From assembly GCF_040126055.1 (NCBI RefSeq), contig NZ_CP143541.1, positions 2,728,001 through 2,792,000 of the forward strand: a stretch of 64,000 nt of DNA. The letters are read 5' to 3'. Shown piece after piece: positions 15,421 to 57,945 of the stretch. The translations under genes and the position numbers were made by a program. Origin of the DNA: Pseudalkalibacillus sp. SCS-8 (GTDB lineage: Bacteria > Bacillota > Bacilli > Bacillales > Fictibacillaceae). Under the pieces are notes generated by a model. It searched no databases and was not told the DNA's origin. It saw only the letters and a program-made list of their open reading frames with translations. The first letter of the stretch is position 1. Each line of letters starts with the position of its first letter.

Positions 15421-15504
15421 TATGGACCGATTTTGCGATCGAACGCTTTAATTTCGAAAATTATAGACCGATTTCACAAAATTATAGACCAATTTCACAA
15501 TTTA
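15421..15504. repeat. Short tandem array, 21-bp period
   Basis: TATRGACC(G/A)ATTT core at 15421, 15462 and 15483, with a degenerate unit near 15441, giving a 20-21 bp period. The last two copies read TATAGACCGATTTCAC and TATAGACCAATTTCAC. It starts 6 bases after the chemoreceptor terminator and ends just before the mltG stop. Non-coding. Confidence 0.75.
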
Positions 15505-29835: not shown

Positions 29836-30774
29836 ATGCGTGTTGTTAATAGTATAGCTGAATTAATCGGTGATACTCCTTTTGTTAAATTGAATCGTCT
29901 GACGGATCCGAACGGTGCAGATGTTTATGTGAAATTAGAGTACTTTAACCCAAGCGGGAGTATTAAGGATCGCGCCGCTTACAATATGCTTGCTGAAGCT
30001 GAAAAAAAGAACCTCTTGAAAGAAGGTTCGACGATCATTGAACCGACATCTGGGAATACCGGTATCGGCCTGGCGATGAATGCCGCTGCTAAAGGCTACA
30101 AAGCCATTATCGTGATGCCAGATACGATGACCCAGGAAAGAATCAATCTTCTGAAGGCATATGGTGCCGAGGTTGTCCTGACACCTGGAGATGACAAAAT
30201 GCCTGGGGCAATTGAAAAGGCGAAGGAGCTAGCTGAAAAAATTCCGAACAGTTTCATGCCGATGCAGTTTGAAAACCCGGCGAACCCTGATGCCCATCGC
30301 CATACGACAGCAATGGAGATCCTAGAGGCAGCCAAAGTGATTGGAAAGAACTTCACAACATTCGTCGCACCAGCTGGTACAGGTGGGACGATTACAGGAA
30401 CAGGAGAGACATTAAAGAAACACATCCCTGATCTTGATATTAAAGTAGTTGAACCTGAAGGCTCCCCTGTCCTATCAGGCGGAAAGCCAGGGAAGCACAA
30501 GCTGGTCGGTACGAGTCCCGGTTTTATTCCAGAGATCTTGAACCAAAAGATTTACGATGAAATTATCCGAATTAAGGATGAGGAAGCGATTGAAACAGCA
30601 AGAAGCCTTGCGAGCCAAGAAGGGATCCTAGTCGGACCATCCTCTGGTGCTTCTGTGTATGCCGCTCTTCAAGCAGCTAAGAAGCTGACGAATGAGGATG
30701 TGGTCATTGCAATGACTTGTGATTCAGGCGAACGATATTTATCAAGTGACCTATTCGATTTTGAAGAAAAATAA
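29836..30774 (+). CDS. Cysteine synthase family protein (YtkP-like)
   Basis: PLP-dependent O-acetylserine sulfhydrylase fold: O-acetylserine + sulfide to cysteine. Seen: 312 aa; PLP lysine in NPSGSIKDRAA (about residue 43), PTSGNTGIGLAM, GTGGTITGTGE and GPSSGASVYAA. Start: ATG 29836 with AAGGA at 10 nt. B. subtilis has ytkP here, a cysK paralogue; whether this is the main or a paralogous enzyme is open. Own promoter and terminator. Confidence 0.9.
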   Translation: MRVVNSIAELIGDTPFVKLNRLTDPNGADVYVKLEYFNPSGSIKDRAAYNMLAEAEKKNLLKEGSTIIEPTSGNTGIGLAMNAAAKGYKAIIVMPDTMTQERINLLKAYGAEVVLTPGDDKMPGAIEKAKELAEKIPNSFMPMQFENPANPDAHRHTTAMEILEAAKVIGKNFTTFVAPAGTGGTITGTGETLKKHIPDLDIKVVEPEGSPVLSGGKPGKHKLVGTSPGFIPEILNQKIYDEIIRIKDEEAIETARSLASQEGILVGPSSGASVYAALQAAKKLTNEDVVIAMTCDSGERYLSSDLFDFEEK

Positions 30775-31157: not shown

Positions 31158-32322
31158 ATGCAAAAGCCCGCTCAGGCAGGAATCTCAAGTTCACGAGCAA
31201 GAGAACCAATCCTATGGTTGTTAATGCACCAAAGAAGAAATAGAGACCGAATAAAGAGAAGGTATCGTAAATGATGCCTCCAATAAAGGTACAGAACCAG
31301 CTGCCCAGCCCATTTCCCATCGAACTGTATAAAGCGACAGCCGTCGCCTTTACATCATCCGGGGCAATTTCCCTTACATATTGAAGTGCTGCAGGGATGA
31401 ACAAGCCAATTGAGAACCCTTGAGCAATCGTAGTTGCATAAACCCCTACTAATGTCGGTTCAGTAAAGTAATAGAACCATCTGATTGCAGAGATAAGCGC
31501 TGCCGCAATCAGGATCTTTTCATAGCCGAGCTTCCTGATCCATCCGCCTGAAAATTTCATGAAAGGTGCCTCACTTCCAGCGGCTAATAGAAAGGCGATC
31601 CCCACTCCTGCAAGTGTGCCGCCCAACTCTTGAATATATAATCCGAAGAAGAAGTTATTGGAATGAATCGGTCCGAACACTGAAAAAGTCGTCAATAAAA
31701 ACAGGATGAATTTCGGCATCTTTATCAATTTTACAAAGCCTGTCCGTAAGTCAACCTGCAATGAGTTGCTCTCTTTTGGCATTGAAAGGACAAAGATTGC
31801 GCAGATCAACAAGGCCGCTGTAAAGCCGTAGAAGATTAATGTGAGACCGAGCGTTTCAGCTAGTGAGCCCATCACATATACAGACAACGCGAATCCTACT
31901 GCACCCCATAACCGGAAGTTTCCATAGTCCTTTTTTTCAGCCATGACATAATTGAGCGTGATACTGTCTGATACCGGAACAATCGCACTCTGGAATGTGG
32001 CAAGTAAAATGGAAACAAAAATGAAGCCCCAATACGATTCCAAATATGCAAACGGTAACGCGAGAGCACCACTCAATATAAGCGTTAAGATGAGGACCCC
32101 TCTTGGACGCCTTGTATAGTCACAAATCAGCCCCCAAATCGGTTGAGCCACAATCATCACCACGGGACTGACGGACATGATGATCCCGATTTGTGTCCCC
32201 GTTAATCCGACCTCCTGCTTCAAATAGACACTCAATAACGGAAAAAGCGTACCGAAACCGAAGAAGATGAAAAAATAGAATAAGCTGATGTTCACAGATG
32301 TTTTTTCAAAAGAGTACTTCAT
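31156..32322 (-). CDS. MFS transporter (MFS_1-like, HcaT/nucleoside symporter-like)
   Basis: 388-aa, 12-segment major facilitator protein. Seen: MSVSPVVMIVAQPIWGLICD at the loop 2-3 motif, NYVMAEKKDYGNFRLWGAVGFA typical of the MFS_1-like family including HcaT, and duplicated six-helix halves. Substrate unknown. AGGAG is 9 nt upstream of the ATG. Confidence 0.85.
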   Translation of the reverse strand: MKYSFEKTSVNISLFYFFIFFGFGTLFPLLSVYLKQEVGLTGTQIGIIMSVSPVVMIVAQPIWGLICDYTRRPRGVLILTLILSGALALPFAYLESYWGFIFVSILLATFQSAIVPVSDSITLNYVMAEKKDYGNFRLWGAVGFALSVYVMGSLAETLGLTLIFYGFTAALLICAIFVLSMPKESNSLQVDLRTGFVKLIKMPKFILFLLTTFSVFGPIHSNNFFFGLYIQELGGTLAGVGIAFLLAAGSEAPFMKFSGGWIRKLGYEKILIAAALISAIRWFYYFTEPTLVGVYATTIAQGFSIGLFIPAALQYVREIAPDDVKATAVALYSSMGNGLGSWFCTFIGGIIYDTFSLFGLYFFFGALTTIGLVLLLVNLRFLPERAFA

Positions 32323-32475: not shown

Positions 32476-33381
32476 ATGAAGAAAACGCGTAGTGAGTCAA
32501 AAGAATTGAGGGTTATGAAACTGTTGGAAGCCCGAATGGATTTAAGTGAACCCGATCGAAGCTATCTTTTGAGTTTAAAGAAAGGCTATGAAGGAGAGTG
32601 TAAGTTTGACGGTTTGGTTGCCCCTTTTTTTGGTGGACGAATCGTTCTCAACGACCTATTGCTCGAGCATAAGAACACAGTTTTTCAAATTGATTCATTG
32701 GTACTCAGCTCCTCTATGATTGACATGTTCGAAGTGAAAAATTACGAAGGTGACTACTATGTCGATGGAGAGCACTGGTACCCCCTTCACGGTAACGAGA
32801 TTAAGAACCCCCTGCATCAAATACAACGATCCACCCTACTACTCCGCGATCTATTAAAAGGCTTAGGCATTAAACTCCCGGTTGAATCCCACCTCGTTTT
32901 TGTGAACCCCGAGTTCCAGCTATATAAAGCTCCTGTTGATCAATCCATTGTTTATCCCGCCCAATTGAACCGATTTTTCTCGAAAATGCAAAAAGAGCGC
33001 TCGTTTCTGAAGGAGTACCACTATGACATCGCTAAACAGCTGCTCGCCCTCCAATTGGCGGACGTCCCCTCCTTTCGATTACCAAAGTATGATTATCCCC
33101 AATTGAAAAAAGGAATACCGTGTTTGGCATGTGGTCAGATGTATGGTGAGTTAGCCAAAACGAGATTGGTCTGTAAAAACTGCGGCGGTTGCGAAGACTA
33201 CGAGCCAGCGGTGTTGCGAGCCGTCGAGGAATTCCAGTTGCTGTTTCCGGAGATGAAGGTCACGACCAACGCCATTCATGAGTGGTGTGGGGTGGTGAAG
33301 AAAAGACTAACTATCCGTAATGTGCTAGCGAGGAATTACAATCGAGTAGGTCATGGAAGGCACTCGTATTATCTTTCATGA
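32476..33381 (+). CDS. NERD-domain protein with C-terminal zinc ribbon and helical domain
   Basis: 301 aa. Seen: NERD (nuclease-related) domain at about residues 35-150 with GYEGECKFD, QIDSLVLSSS and FEVKNYEGDYYV (Asp and Glu-x-Lys as in PD-(D/E)xK nucleases); a zinc-ribbon CLACG...CKNCGGC near 215-240; and a C-terminal helical region. Known: NERD proteins are likely DNA-processing factors. The ATG lacks a well-spaced binding site (AAGGAGG is 14 nt away). Its 3' end runs directly into the 52-bp array. Confidence 0.83.
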   Translation: MKKTRSESKELRVMKLLEARMDLSEPDRSYLLSLKKGYEGECKFDGLVAPFFGGRIVLNDLLLEHKNTVFQIDSLVLSSSMIDMFEVKNYEGDYYVDGEHWYPLHGNEIKNPLHQIQRSTLLLRDLLKGLGIKLPVESHLVFVNPEFQLYKAPVDQSIVYPAQLNRFFSKMQKERSFLKEYHYDIAKQLLALQLADVPSFRLPKYDYPQLKKGIPCLACGQMYGELAKTRLVCKNCGGCEDYEPAVLRAVEEFQLLFPEMKVTTNAIHEWCGVVKKRLTIRNVLARNYNRVGHGRHSYYLS

Positions 33382-33793
33382 TGTCGCATAGAGAGTTATG
33401 CGTACCCCATATTGCATTTTTCTCGTATTCGGGGACGCATGAGCCCTTCTTGCGTCCCTCATTTTGCGTTTTCCTTGTTTTCGGGGACGCATGAGACCTT
33501 CTTGCGTCCCTCATTTTGCGTTTTCCTTGTTTTCGGGGACGCATGAGCTCTTCTTGCGTCCCTCATTTTGCGTTTTCCTTGTTTTCGGGGACGCATAAGA
33601 CCTTCTTGCGTCCCTCATTTTACGTTTTCCTCGTTTTCGGGGACGCATAAGACCTTCTTGCGTCCCTCATTTTGCGTTTTCTCGTTTTCGGGGACGCATG
33701 AGCCCTCCTTGCGTCCCTCATTTTGCGTTTTCCTCATTTTCGGGGACGCATGAGCTCTTCTTAATTCTCTCATTGTGCATTTGTACTGGATTT
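33379..33793. repeat. Tandem array of 52-bp hairpin units (8 units)
   Basis: GGGGACGCAT starts at 33431, 33483, 33535, 33587, 33639, 33690 and 33742: spacing 52 bp, once 51. Each unit has GGGACGCA...TGCGTCCC, an 8-bp perfect stem with an 11-nt loop, then a T/C-rich stretch. A degenerate first unit (33379-33430) keeps a different stem, GCATA/TATGC; the last unit has lost its right arm. The array begins at the NERD-gene stop codon and ends before the pepV terminator. Open frames through it are by-products of repetition. Confidence 0.93.
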
Positions 33794-33805
33794 CTCTCCA
33801 TCAAT

Positions 33806-33836
33806 AAAAAAACCGAGTACATCCGTACTCGGTTTC
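33806..33836. terminator. Terminator of pepV
   Basis: AAACCGAGTAC/GTACTCGGTTT stem flanked by A- and T-runs. Confidence 0.92.
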
Positions 33837-33852
33837 TCCCAATCAAATCTCC

Positions 33853-35256
33853 TTACTTCGCCAGCTCATAGATTGCTTGGGCGTAGATTGCGGTTGCTTT
33901 CATCAGGTTTTCGATGTCGATGTACTCGTCTTTCTGGTGAGCCAACTCGTCCTCACCTGGGAACAAGGCGCCGAACGCAACGCCTGCATCCAATGATCGG
34001 GCATAAGTGCCGCCGCCAATCGAGATCAGGTAGCCCTCTTCTCCCGTTTGCTCCTCATAGACGGACATCAGAGTCTTAATCAACGGATGATCTTCAGCAA
34101 CATGGTGCGGTCCCAAATGCTCAATCTCGTTCAGCTCATAACCGAACTCCGATCCCGCTTTCTCCAATACGCCACGAGTCCGATCGAAGTCATGCGACAC
34201 TGGGTAACGGAGGTTCATCCCGATTTTGCCGCCTTCCTCAACGGAATACCGCATGATTCCGGCGTTCAACGTCAACGGACCGCTCACTTCATCAGAATCC
34301 GCGATCTGCAACTTTGCACCTTCCGTATCCGCAGTCAGATATTCACTCACAAGGCTGATGAACGCTCCACCGTCGCCTTCAAATGAAAAAGCGGATAAAA
34401 ACTCGGCCAGGAACAGTCCTGCGTTTTTTCCAGTCTCAGGTTTACTGCCGTGTACCGATACACCTTCCAGTTTAAACGTATAGCGACCATCTGCCTCCAC
34501 AAGCTCGCCGGTCAAACCGGTATCAGCTAAAAACGAGTTAAACGATGCCTCCACGTCATCAGACAGGCCATCAACTACCGCTTCAGCGTAGTCTGGCACC
34601 ATGTTCAGCCTTCTCCCTGAATCGAACGACAACAAACGAGCTCCCTCACCAGAGCCTGCTCCTTCAACGCGAGTCTGTTTCCATTCACAATCAAAGATTC
34701 CTTTTTCCGCGTATATAATTGGGAAATCCGCATCCGGCGCAAAACCGATCGTCGGCATTTCTTCATGCTTGAAATAGTGCTTCACACAGCGCCAGTTGCT
34801 CTCTTCGTCAGTACCGAAAATAATACGGACGCGCTTCTTCACATCAAGACCGAGCTCCTTGACGATTTTCATCGCATAATACGCTGCCATCGTTGGTCCT
34901 TTATCATCGATTGCTCCACGAGCATAAATACGGCCATCACGGATTTCAGCTGCAAATGGATCAGAGCTCCAACCGTCTCCAGCGGGTACAACATCCAGGT
35001 GGCACAGCACACCGACGAGATCTTGTCCTTCACCGAATTCCAAGTGACCGGCATATCCATCTACATTTTTACTTGCAAAGCCGTCAGCTTCCCCTTTTGC
35101 CAAAAAGTGCGTGAGAGCGCGGTTAATTCCTTCTCCGAATGGAGCAGCTTCCCTGGCACTCTCCGGATCTAGGACACTTTCGATTTGTAACAGCTCCTGG
35201 AGGTCGTTAATCAGATCCTCTTTCCGCTTCTCTACTTCCTGTTTCCAGTCAATCAT
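33853..35256 (-). CDS. pepV: Dipeptidase PepV (YtjP), M20 family
   Basis: Zn dipeptidase acting on a broad range of dipeptides in the cytosol. Seen: 467 aa; GVLCHLDVVPAGDGW (His-x-Asp ligands), YARGAIDDKGPTMAAYYAMK, catalytic FGTDEESNW (Glu-Glu), FAPDADFP, and C-terminal IGGGTYARSL. B. subtilis ytjP is in the same place. AAGGGGATG precedes the ATG. Confidence 0.94.
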   Translation of the reverse strand: MIDWKQEVEKRKEDLINDLQELLQIESVLDPESAREAAPFGEGINRALTHFLAKGEADGFASKNVDGYAGHLEFGEGQDLVGVLCHLDVVPAGDGWSSDPFAAEIRDGRIYARGAIDDKGPTMAAYYAMKIVKELGLDVKKRVRIIFGTDEESNWRCVKHYFKHEEMPTIGFAPDADFPIIYAEKGIFDCEWKQTRVEGAGSGEGARLLSFDSGRRLNMVPDYAEAVVDGLSDDVEASFNSFLADTGLTGELVEADGRYTFKLEGVSVHGSKPETGKNAGLFLAEFLSAFSFEGDGGAFISLVSEYLTADTEGAKLQIADSDEVSGPLTLNAGIMRYSVEEGGKIGMNLRYPVSHDFDRTRGVLEKAGSEFGYELNEIEHLGPHHVAEDHPLIKTLMSVYEEQTGEEGYLISIGGGTYARSLDAGVAFGALFPGEDELAHQKDEYIDIENLMKATAIYAQAIYELAK

Positions 35257-43529: not shown

Positions 43530-43637
43530 CCAAATCATTCCTTCCATCTATATTAAATCATTTATATCTTTGCTCTTTCGTCACTTATTTTAATAACTTC
43601 ACTAAAAAAAGTAAAGGGATTGATTTTGGAAGGTGGA

Positions 43638-43761
43638 ATTCCTGAAAATTTGAGGCGGATTCCTGAATTTCGTGGTGGAATTCCTGAAAGTTGAGGGTGA
43701 ATTCCTGAAAATTGAGGATGAATTCCTGAAAAACTACATCCAATTCCTGAATTTGGTAAAA
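43638..43761. repeat. Array A: six 21-bp units downstream of leuS
   Basis: ATTCCTGAA occurs at 43638, 43659, 43680, 43701, 43722 and 43743, exactly 21 bp apart; the first 9-10 bases are conserved and the rest vary, often GTTGAGGRTGA. It lies between the leuS terminator and the ytwF start. The minus strand reads as a heptapeptide repeat (SGIHPQF-like), but no ribosome binding site is seen. Confidence 0.93.
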
Positions 43762-46252: not shown

Positions 46253-46356
46253 TAGTAAGCCACTCCCATTCTTTTATATGTTTTAAGTATGATTTCATCT
46301 GGTATGTTTGTATATCTAAAGGGTGCAGGACCCTCTGATGATGTGGTAGTTGTTCC

Positions 46357-46482
46357 ATTCCTGAATTTTCAGGTGTAATTCCTGAAAGTTTAGGGTTAAT
46401 CCCTGAATTTTCAAGGTGATTTCCGGAAAAATTGCTTTCAATTCCTGAAATTCTGCCCATAATTCCTGAAATTAGTACAAGT
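46357..46482. repeat. Array B: six 21-bp units in the leuS leader
   Basis: ATTCCTGAA-type units start at 46357, 46378, 46399, 46420, 46441 and 46462, exactly 21 bp apart; units 3 and 4 are degenerate (ATCCCTGAA, TTTCCGGAA). Same core and same period as array A on the other side of leuS. Lies inside the transcribed leader between the T-box and the leuS start. Confidence 0.92.
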
Positions 46483-46626: not shown

Positions 46627-46905
46627 TAAAAACCTCCCGCCACTGATCTAAAACATCAGGGACGAGAGGTTGAATAAACAATAACCTTCCCGCGGTACCA
46701 CCCGCATTAGTGCATAAATGAAACGTGCACTCACTCAAGCTCCTTATCGCGGAGAAACGATAAACGCTACTTCGGATGTTCACGTTTATGGCTCGGAGGC
46801 GAGTTCAAATAGTGTTCGGGTTGGCTTTCCAGCAGCCGCCAACTCTCTAGGACCGTTGACTATTTTACTATTCCTCTTCTTCGCCTTGAATTTGTGAAGA
46901 ATGTA
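46627..46905 (-). promoter_or_regulatory. T-box leader (tRNA-Leu) of leuS
   Basis: Conserved T-box GGGTGGTACCGCGG (46690-46703 on the minus strand), a Stem I region with specifier GAA-CTC-GCC (CUC, leucine), and a terminator stem ACCTC...GAGGT with T-run at 46627-46672. Uncharged tRNA-Leu should favour the antiterminator and leuS transcription. Confidence 0.95.
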
Positions 46906-56029: not shown

Positions 56030-56047
56030 GTGGATGAATTCGTTTTT

Positions 56048-56137
56048 GTAGATAATTTCTGTTTTTTGTAGATAATTTTTTATTTTCGTAGATAATTTCA
56101 AATTTTCGTAGGAAATTTGAAATTTTTGTAGATAATC
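56048..56137. repeat. Tandem array, exact 20-bp period, five units
   Basis: GTAGATAAT (one copy GTAGGAAAT) starts at 56048, 56068, 56088, 56108 and 56128, each preceded by TTTT or TTTC. Lies between convergent GT4 and metK. The other bases of this 310-bp gap are A/T-rich and hold a possible repeat remnant (ATGTTGTTGATTTTGAACAG near 56269) and the metK terminator. Confidence 0.93.
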
Positions 56138-57790: not shown

Positions 57791-57945
57791 AAAAAAAAAC
57801 CTTTCCCTTTTTAGAGGAAAGGTGGTTCGTTGTAAACCTTTCACCCTCTTATTTTTCAGGTTAGCACCTTTTCACCTATTGGTGTCGGTTGCTGGGTTTC
57901 ATTGGGCCTGTCCCTCCACCTACTCGGAATAAGAGTAGCCGTTCT
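57791..57945 (-). promoter_or_regulatory. SAM-I riboswitch (S-box) of metK
   Basis: On the minus strand: GGTGGAGGGACAGGCCCAAT, then GAAACCCAGCAACCG and AAGGTGCTAACC, the S-box core, followed by the terminator ACCTTTCC(TC)...GGGAAAGGT with nine T (57791-57823). About 250 nt of further leader precede metK and contain small hairpins (ACTCA/TGAGT, GTCC/GGAC). SAM binding should terminate transcription. Confidence 0.96.

Follow-up and report, generated by a model that had tools for sequence, protein, structure and literature searches.

What ties the gene of a predicted nuclease to the tandem repeats that begin where its reading frame ends? The question is raised by a locus of Pseudalkalibacillus sp. 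SCS-8, located in a stretch of 64,000 nucleotides of contig NZ_CP143541.1 (the window), in which the gene of a NERD-domain protein is directly followed by an array of 52-bp units able to form hairpins. The comparisons described here suggest that a nuclease is partnered with repeats of its own, in a system that has not been described before and would extend across Bacillales. The genome of the window (3.62 Mb, one contig) is labelled G000, and the genomes compared with it are labelled G001-G007 (same genus) and G010 (a relative in the same family). Two clades of proteins are distinguished: NERD-300, with proteins of about 300 amino acids containing a NERD domain and a Zn ribbon, and its sister clade NERD-335, of about 335 amino acids.

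The NERD gene and its 52-bp array

The NERD-300 gene of the window (301 aa) occupies positions 32476..33381 of the plus strand, and its stop codon (33379-33381) lies immediately 5' of the array. The array is preceded by a decayed leading copy (CGCATA/TATGCG; 33382..33408, plus strand), defined by fold and pairing analysis. The array itself (33397..33752, plus strand) consists of seven units, each made up of arm3, a 24-nt T-rich segment and arm5, one of them being 51 bp long; TRF places it at 33399-33762, with a period of 52, 7.0 copies and 92% matches. According to the sequence, its decaying 3' end (33753..33800, plus strand) contains the spacer and a degenerate linker. Further on there is an inverted repeat with A/T runs (33806..33838, no strand assigned), noticed by eye and not flagged by a simple terminator scan, which, again by eye, is probably the terminator of a convergent gene. 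This neighbour is an open reading frame on the minus strand (33853..35256), which we take to encode a PepV-like dipeptidase; the same neighbour stands after the NERD gene in both G003 and G007.

The original prediction counted seven near-identical hairpin units. The number is right for the units at period 52 but not for the hairpins, because the GGGACGCA arm is present seven times and the TGCGTCCC arm six times, which gives six exact compact hairpins. Folded as single-stranded DNA, the array (415 nt) reaches -73.8 kcal/mol versus a mean of -36.7 kcal/mol for 100 dinucleotide shuffles (z -8.5). A regular hairpin folds at -15.5 kcal/mol (0/200 shuffles equally good) and the leading copy at -7.2 kcal/mol (3/200). 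The latter had been credited with a different stem that still pairs; it retains CGCA/TGCG, the core shared with the other units, and differs from them by two additional inner pairs (T-A and A-T) and by the absence of the four outer ones. It is a decayed copy still able to fold, with no new stem. The last unit, for its part, has not necessarily lost one arm, since two pairings are open to each arm: one over the spacer of about 11 nt, which gives the hairpin of the original prediction, and one over the 24-nt T-rich segment. In five near-isolated copies, picked by eye, the long-loop pairing is the better one (8-10 of 10 pairs versus 1-7). The long loop is also favoured in last units (18 versus 6, with 9 ties; n=33) and the spacer pairing in first units (15 versus 4, with 14 ties; n=33), and no preference is seen in the HMM-found units without a neighbour (10 versus 12, with 5 ties; n=27). 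An arm3-to-arm5 order in every array, expected at first, found no confirmation in the array ends, which did not settle the register. A conserved A.G mismatch in the stem, suspected by eye, was also discarded when counts over 31 units gave A.G/G.A in 14, C.A/A.C in 15, and other combinations.

The simple scan (GC-rich stem followed by a T-run) detected no terminator-like site between positions 32300 and 34000, with both strands covered, in line with the earlier statement that no other terminator separates the NERD gene from the array. Rfam, used at the gathering score, finds in the window only a T-box leader (46655-46890, minus strand) and a SAM riboswitch (57846-57935, minus strand), both away from the 52-bp array. 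Searches with the array gave no match in phages and one scrappy match in plasmids.

The NERD-300 protein

The window protein matches the Pfam family NERD (PF08378) with 57.9 bits, the cut-off being 22.1 (E 1.7e-15), and its layout comprises a putative PD-(D/E)XK-like nuclease domain, a four-Cys Zn ribbon and a helical C-terminal domain. Residues E41, D73 and K88, together with C216, C219, C233 and C236, are invariant in 51/51 aligned homologues, and residue 86 is E or D in 47/51. An AF2 model of the protein has a mean pLDDT of 85.6. Among the structural matches listed for it are middling ones (Z up to 8.3) to Can2, McrC, XisH, nickases and similar PD-(D/E)XK enzymes; the predicted nuclease fold is supported by these matches and by the invariant residues. 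For the C-terminal domain the best fold match (E 0.42) was not significant, with only weak zinc-finger and winged-helix rows, and a PDB sequence search with the NERD protein returned no match. PADLOC and NCBIfam yielded weak, partial matches to PglW, MkoA and MAD6, of which those to PglW and MAD6 cover the NERD part only and lie far under the cut-offs. In five proteins of both clades NERD is the only Pfam domain that reaches its cut-off, and in the libraries searched NERD proteins are given no function other than the NERD domain itself. G000 holds two NERD-300 genes, that of the window and a second one (L153).

Association of NERD-300 genes with 52-bp arrays

A total of 57 NERD-300 loci were gathered from 8 initial named matches, 15 more from the genus, 29 from a search of the order and 5 from a search of the phylum. 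After dropping one duplicate (L188 = L119), an array is found directly downstream of the gene in 50/56 distinct loci (51/57 before), these being the best-scoring loci and not a random sample. The period of these cis arrays is 51 bp (n=6), 52 bp (n=38), 53 bp (n=5) or 102 bp (n=1), and they contain 2.2-20.4 tandem repeats. They begin between -3 and 264 bp past the stop codon (679 bp for a gene that contains an internal stop), and at 100 bp or less in 39/50 loci. Two of the 56 loci (L158 and L161) have an upstream array only, three (L122, L123 and L189) have no array by TRF, and L163, with 207 bp remaining to the contig end, is not among the 50. One NERD-300 gene of G001 (L160) has 52-bp arrays on both sides.

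The order search detected NERD-300 in 110/299 sampled genomes, providing the 29 new loci; several of the genes listed by it lie 130-460 bp from a draft contig edge, so that the arrays are probably a cause of assembly breaks and counted too low. In the phylum search 4/398 genomes matched at E<=1e-25, all of them from the same order as the window genome. The homologue of Trichococcus patagoniensis indicates that the gene is not confined to Bacillales. Arrays of 52 bp accompany this homologue and those of Bacillus sp. FJAT-29790, Cytobacillus eiseniae, B. methanolicus PB1 and a strain labelled B. subtilis DE0224, as well as NERD homologues that G005 and G006 carry outside the NERD-dipeptidase site. 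PMC12802215 places a NERD gene of B. methanolicus MGA3 (BMMGA3_16030) at a distance of 456 bp from upp.

The repeat unit changes quickly with the divergence of the protein. Unit similarity is 0.85-0.87 for the three protein pairs above 80% identity, has a mean of 0.59 at 70-80% and of 0.48 at 60-70%, and falls to 0.38-0.42 below 60%, shuffled units giving 0.40. A faint likeness remains at 45-60% protein identity, where 11-15% of the pairs still exceed the 95th percentile of the shuffles. The repeat therefore turns over much faster than the protein, while the period and often the palindromy persist. Contiguous stems in cis units have a mean of 6.4 bp versus 4.6 bp in shuffled ones (p<=0.05 in 20/52); when mismatches are tolerated, the palindromy of these units has a mean z of 2.6 and reaches p<=0.05 in 28/52 but not in 24/52.

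The background frequency of such arrays was estimated from 400 kb of G000, which contain five 52-bp arrays, about one per 80 kb. G010, in which no NERD-300 was found at E<=1e-30, carries eight NERD-335 genes. Arrays of 52 bp make up 5/20 of the tandem arrays sampled in G000 versus 0/30 in G010 (Fisher p 0.007), a comparison of one genome of each kind, based on 20 segments of 20 kb per genome and on merged arrays with a period of at least 12, in which the G000 grid was near-even and non-random, had a few shifted starts, left out the place of the window and included three 52-bp arrays (of the five) known beforehand.

Arrays across the genome and covariation of their arms

The exact hairpin of the window recurs at two other G000 loci, as found when the unit was searched for elsewhere in the genome, a check suggested with the original prediction. 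A covariance model (R1), built from 16 units of three arrays with the same arms (window, L010 and L011), gave 76 matches at E<=1 in 23 places of G000, from which 21 arrays were kept after dropping L064 and L065, where the unit HMM found nothing. Of these arrays, 20/21 overlap no ORF of at least 120 aa. Arrays of the family are found in either orientation beside other genes. Within one array the units are near-identical; between arrays the arms vary, and the T-rich framework and the 52-bp period are constant. Four arrays (L049, L054, L055 and L066) are mosaics of two arm types, with the switch in the framework or in the spacer. R1 is incomplete, since it finds 3/5 of the 52-bp arrays in the 400 kb of G000 and misses the cis array of L153. 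It has matches in 4/7 genus relatives (G003, G004, G005 and G006) and, in a search of 59 other genomes with stricter filters (E<=0.01 only), no match of at least 42 bits, the best one being of 41.1 bits, in G003.

The arms of the arrays can be related to the NERD-300 genes of the same genome. Those of the second NERD-300 locus of G000, TGAGGTGCTC/GCACCTCA, recur in L053 and, for one arm, in L047, and the cis arms GGATAGAAAG of G003 are found again in several G003 arrays. The unit sequence is particular to a gene and its near relatives, and arrays with the same arms stand at further intergenic sites in the genome. By eye, 11/20 of the other R1-detected G000 arrays have arms that match neither of the two NERD-300 cis arrays of G000.

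The original prediction held that pairing was kept while the sequence changed, and proposed a covariation analysis. Such changes are not found in the leading unit, nor within the arm type of the window (0/160 cells changed on both sides, in 16 units of three arrays). Between arrays and species the claim very likely holds. One unit per array locus was taken from 46 loci of 5 genomes, L052, L067 and L085 having been left out of 49 for poor register. In this set 80.2% of the cells are paired, versus 61.7% with the 3' letters shuffled and 31-53% with the partners slid; both partners have changed in 105 cells, versus 45 and 18-30, respectively; and the covariation score is 0.523, versus 0.225 when shuffled (0/500 reach it) and 0.075-0.249 when slid. 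These figures lean to paired units, because the loci were found by a stem-containing model and the register came from an HMM seeded by eye, and they control only in part for relatedness and for the stem that the search model contains. Since the slid control scores low, a structural or symmetric-site constraint is very likely, and so, judging from the aligned units, is the maintenance of pairing through sequence change at the level of arrays and species. Selection on RNA may account for the covariation, which can also be explained by a dimeric DNA-binding protein with two co-changing half-sites, or by template switching between the arms.

Array sites are retained from one species to another, often with different arms. 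Ten cross-genome pairs of loci, representing six sites, have both flanks alike; their arms are alike in three pairs (L054-L070, L055-L071 and L086-L095), partly alike in two (L011-L068 and L056-L074) and different in five (L055-L094, L071-L094, L073-L086, L073-L095 and L097-L087). The site between the NERD and dipeptidase genes carries 52-bp arrays with unrelated arms in G000, G003 and G007. No clean empty array site was found in the cross-genome comparison. In 16/21 arrays the T-rich strand is in lagging-strand orientation (p 0.027, with the terminus set at the GC-skew flip of 1.90-2.04 Mb and the origin at the contig start), a weak hint at replication.

The NERD-335 clade and its 20-21-bp arrays

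NERD genes of both clades are widespread in Bacillales. The NERD-335 proteins, present in 147/199 sampled genomes, have the NERD domain and the four-Cys motif in the same order as NERD-300. Arrays with a period of 20-21 or 40-42 bp lie within 700 bp of 21/30 order-wide NERD-335 loci (L216, the repeat of which looks coding, is excluded from the 21) and within 900 bp of 18/20 genus loci, these 20 being all the weak NERD matches (E 1.5e-10 to 8.4e-4), assigned to the clade by score and length and without a tree. Together, 38/49 distinct loci (L203 = L166) have such arrays, upstream or downstream of the gene. Arrays of 50-54 bp were found near 0/30 of the order-wide loci.

The window contains five arrays of period 20 or 21, three of which match a resident NERD gene. 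Two of them stand on either side of leuS, at 43631..43760 (AATTCCTGAAA; TRF end 43732, last copies by eye) and at 46352..46480 (21 bp, same type; TRF end 46449, last copy by eye), and match the repeat that flanks the NERD-335 gene G000:2708933-2709937(-). This repeat gives 12 matches in 11 places of G000, two of them beside the gene and two in the window, and no match in the 7 other genus genomes. The third, a 20-bp array (TTTTTGTAGATAATTTCAAA; 56043..56136, TRF), is of the same type as the repeats upstream of the NERD-335 gene G000:1675415-1676203(+). No strand is assigned to these three arrays. The other two, also detected by TRF, are short (15450-15500 and 30379-30422).

In most of the genus genomes (8 in all; L233-L240; TRF or by eye) leuS has repeats of 20-21 bp in its vicinity, and their type differs between genomes, with one type shared by G004 and G006. 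It had been set beforehand that in each genus genome the type flanking leuS should recur beside a NERD-335 gene of the same genome. It does so in G003 (two exact motifs, and inspection by eye) and in G000, where this was already known, and was not seen in G001, G002, G004, G005, G006 and G007, that is, it recurs in one of the seven new genomes, for which the NERD lists are incomplete. Periods of 20, 21, 40-42 or 60 account for 21/30 of the sampled G010 arrays, and periods of 20-21, 40-42, 52 or 60 for 13/20 of those of G000.

Comparison with known systems

None of the known families tested fits. The RAYT-REP system, as presented in the accessible part of its description, consists of single gene copies with their own flavour of palindromic repeat adjacent and with further copies dispersed between genes, for which co-evolution has been suggested (PMC3116915). 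The NERD repeats resemble RAYT-REP and REPIN elements in standing beside the gene and in having copies of the same flavour dispersed between genes. On the other hand, the enzyme is NERD (PD-(D/E)XK-like) and not a Y1 (HUH) tyrosine transposase, and the NERD repeats form tandem arrays with a fixed period of 52 or 20-21 bp and covarying arms. By analogy, NERD genes and arrays would work most like RAYT-REP, without the Y1 transposase that defines it. A Y1 protein is present in all 8 genus genomes, and a RAYT was considered as partner of the 52-bp arrays and rejected: nine Y1 regions from these genomes gave one weak match to the unit HMM (6 bits), and the 7.5 kb examined around the G000 Y1 gene contain no 52-bp unit. 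This RAYT-like gene, whose neighbours we take to be fabZ-like and flagellar genes, has adjacent GTGTCAGGCACC/GGTGCCTGACAC repeats (L107 3887-4030), a separate REP-like family.

Type III toxin-antitoxin systems (ToxIN, CptIN and TenpIN), in the portion of the literature available on them, have a toxin gene beside tandem repeats particular to the locus (PMC4627078). The NERD genes also adjoin a short tandem-repeat array of locus-specific sequence, which differs in lying downstream in 50/56 loci and upstream only in 2, whereas type III repeats lie upstream; moreover, no toxin domain of the ToxN, CptN or TenpN type reaches its Pfam cut-off in the five proteins compared, and many arrays have no gene. 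CRISPR arrays share with the NERD arrays the regular repeats beside a nuclease gene, but here the whole 52-bp unit repeats, with no unique spacers, and the arms vary between arrays; NERD is named in the legend of a figure in a survey of CRISPR neighbourhoods, as far as its accessible text goes (PMC10910872). Bcr1, Bant-1, Bhal-1 and other stem-loop families of Bacillus are repeated and mostly intergenic; they have other lengths than the 52-bp arrays and no tie to a NERD gene is reported in the part of the source covered here (PMC2267715). A NERD nuclease, described as related to Holliday junction resolvases, is reported from a casposon in another study, the accessible part of which does not mention arrays (PMC6563490).

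Iteron arrays have a period of 20-21 bp, like the NERD-335 repeats, at which, in contrast, no replication origin has been shown. In the open full-text literature no paper tying NERD genes to tandem arrays appeared among the best-ranked matches listed, most subscription papers and preprints being outside that literature.

A probable partnership between NERD nucleases and their repeats

It is very probable that NERD nucleases and repeats form a partnership, to which the array beside the gene of about 300 aa belongs as the gene-linked one. We infer that the NERD protein may recognise its repeats as DNA, because the periods of 20-21 and 52 bp correspond to about 2 and 5 helical turns, which would place the repeats on one face of the helix, and because the arms are symmetric and match in a genome-particular way; palindromic arms would suit a dimer or an extruded hairpin. 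The nuclease would then nick or cut at the repeats, and repair synthesis induced by the nick or break would copy them to other sites and rewrite existing arrays, as is suggested because the arrays stay in place while their arms change. In this manner the arrays would come to reflect the specificity of whichever NERD protein is resident. This mechanism, in which NERD activity at the repeats drives the copying and rewriting of arrays, has a little less than an even chance of being correct, and the explanation as a whole, partnership and mechanism together, stands at about evens.

Several other explanations have to be weighed. NERD could be a regulatory or architectural DNA-binding protein with the arrays as its operators, spread by ordinary duplication and conversion and not by a nuclease. 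This is rather unlikely, yet it would agree with periods close to two and five times 10.4, with the occurrence of arrays in the same intergenic positions again and again, for example next to leuS, and with the 20/21 R1-detected G000 arrays free of longer ORFs; the nuclease residues E41, D73 and K88, retained in all 51 proteins, argue against it, and no conserved set of target genes has been established. It is less probable that the system acts at the RNA level, the array being transcribed and its repeat RNA inhibiting the NERD nuclease in the way of a type III antitoxin. As in the accessible account of those systems, a nuclease gene adjoins tandem repeats that differ strongly between loci (PMC4627078), the stems covary and the RNA of the tested units folds well below shuffles; nevertheless, the downstream position of the array, the many arrays without a NERD gene, the 20-21-bp repeats on either side of NERD-335 genes and the presence of NERD as the only domain above its Pfam cut-off in the five proteins argue against an antitoxin. 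The original prediction itself, that the hairpins form the 3' end of the NERD mRNA as terminator or stabiliser, is the least credible of all. The short distance to the stop codon in 39/50 loci and the lack of a terminator-like site between gene and array in the simple scan are in its favour, but the stem has no T-run after it, arrays of the family adjoin other genes in both orientations, two of the NERD-300 loci have their array upstream only and NERD-335 arrays may stand on either side, and 24/52 units have no significant hairpin.

A role in defence, with NERD as an anti-phage or anti-plasmid nuclease marked or titrated by its own arrays and an arms race behind the fast change of the repeats, seems very improbable. 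NERD domains are found in defence proteins (Mokosh type I and Nhi-like), in a paper whose accessible part does not mention arrays (PMC10952713), and the partial matches to MAD6 and PglW point in the same direction; these are, however, the weak ones already described, limited to the NERD part and far under the cut-offs. Equally improbable is a neutral repeat, expanded by slippage on the lagging strand, with arms kept by template switching and a link to NERD due to hitch-hiking. The lagging-strand bias of the T-rich strand and the homogenised, partly mosaic arrays would agree with it, but it explains neither why 50/56 NERD-300 loci, from many genera, have an array with one fixed period nor why the period is clade-specific.

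The partnership of NERD nucleases with their repeats can be put in a more general form, which we propose only tentatively: NERD proteins would be sequence-specific nucleases, each with a fast-changing DNA repeat rewritten at fixed sites, in two clades with different periods and in a manner similar to RAYT-REP but with an unrelated enzyme. If this is true, the repeats would be a testable substrate for the NERD family, and a considerable part of the tandem repeats that these genomes contain would be explained by the partnership. It would also be a second, independent case, beside RAYT-REP, of a gene partnered with dispersed repeats.
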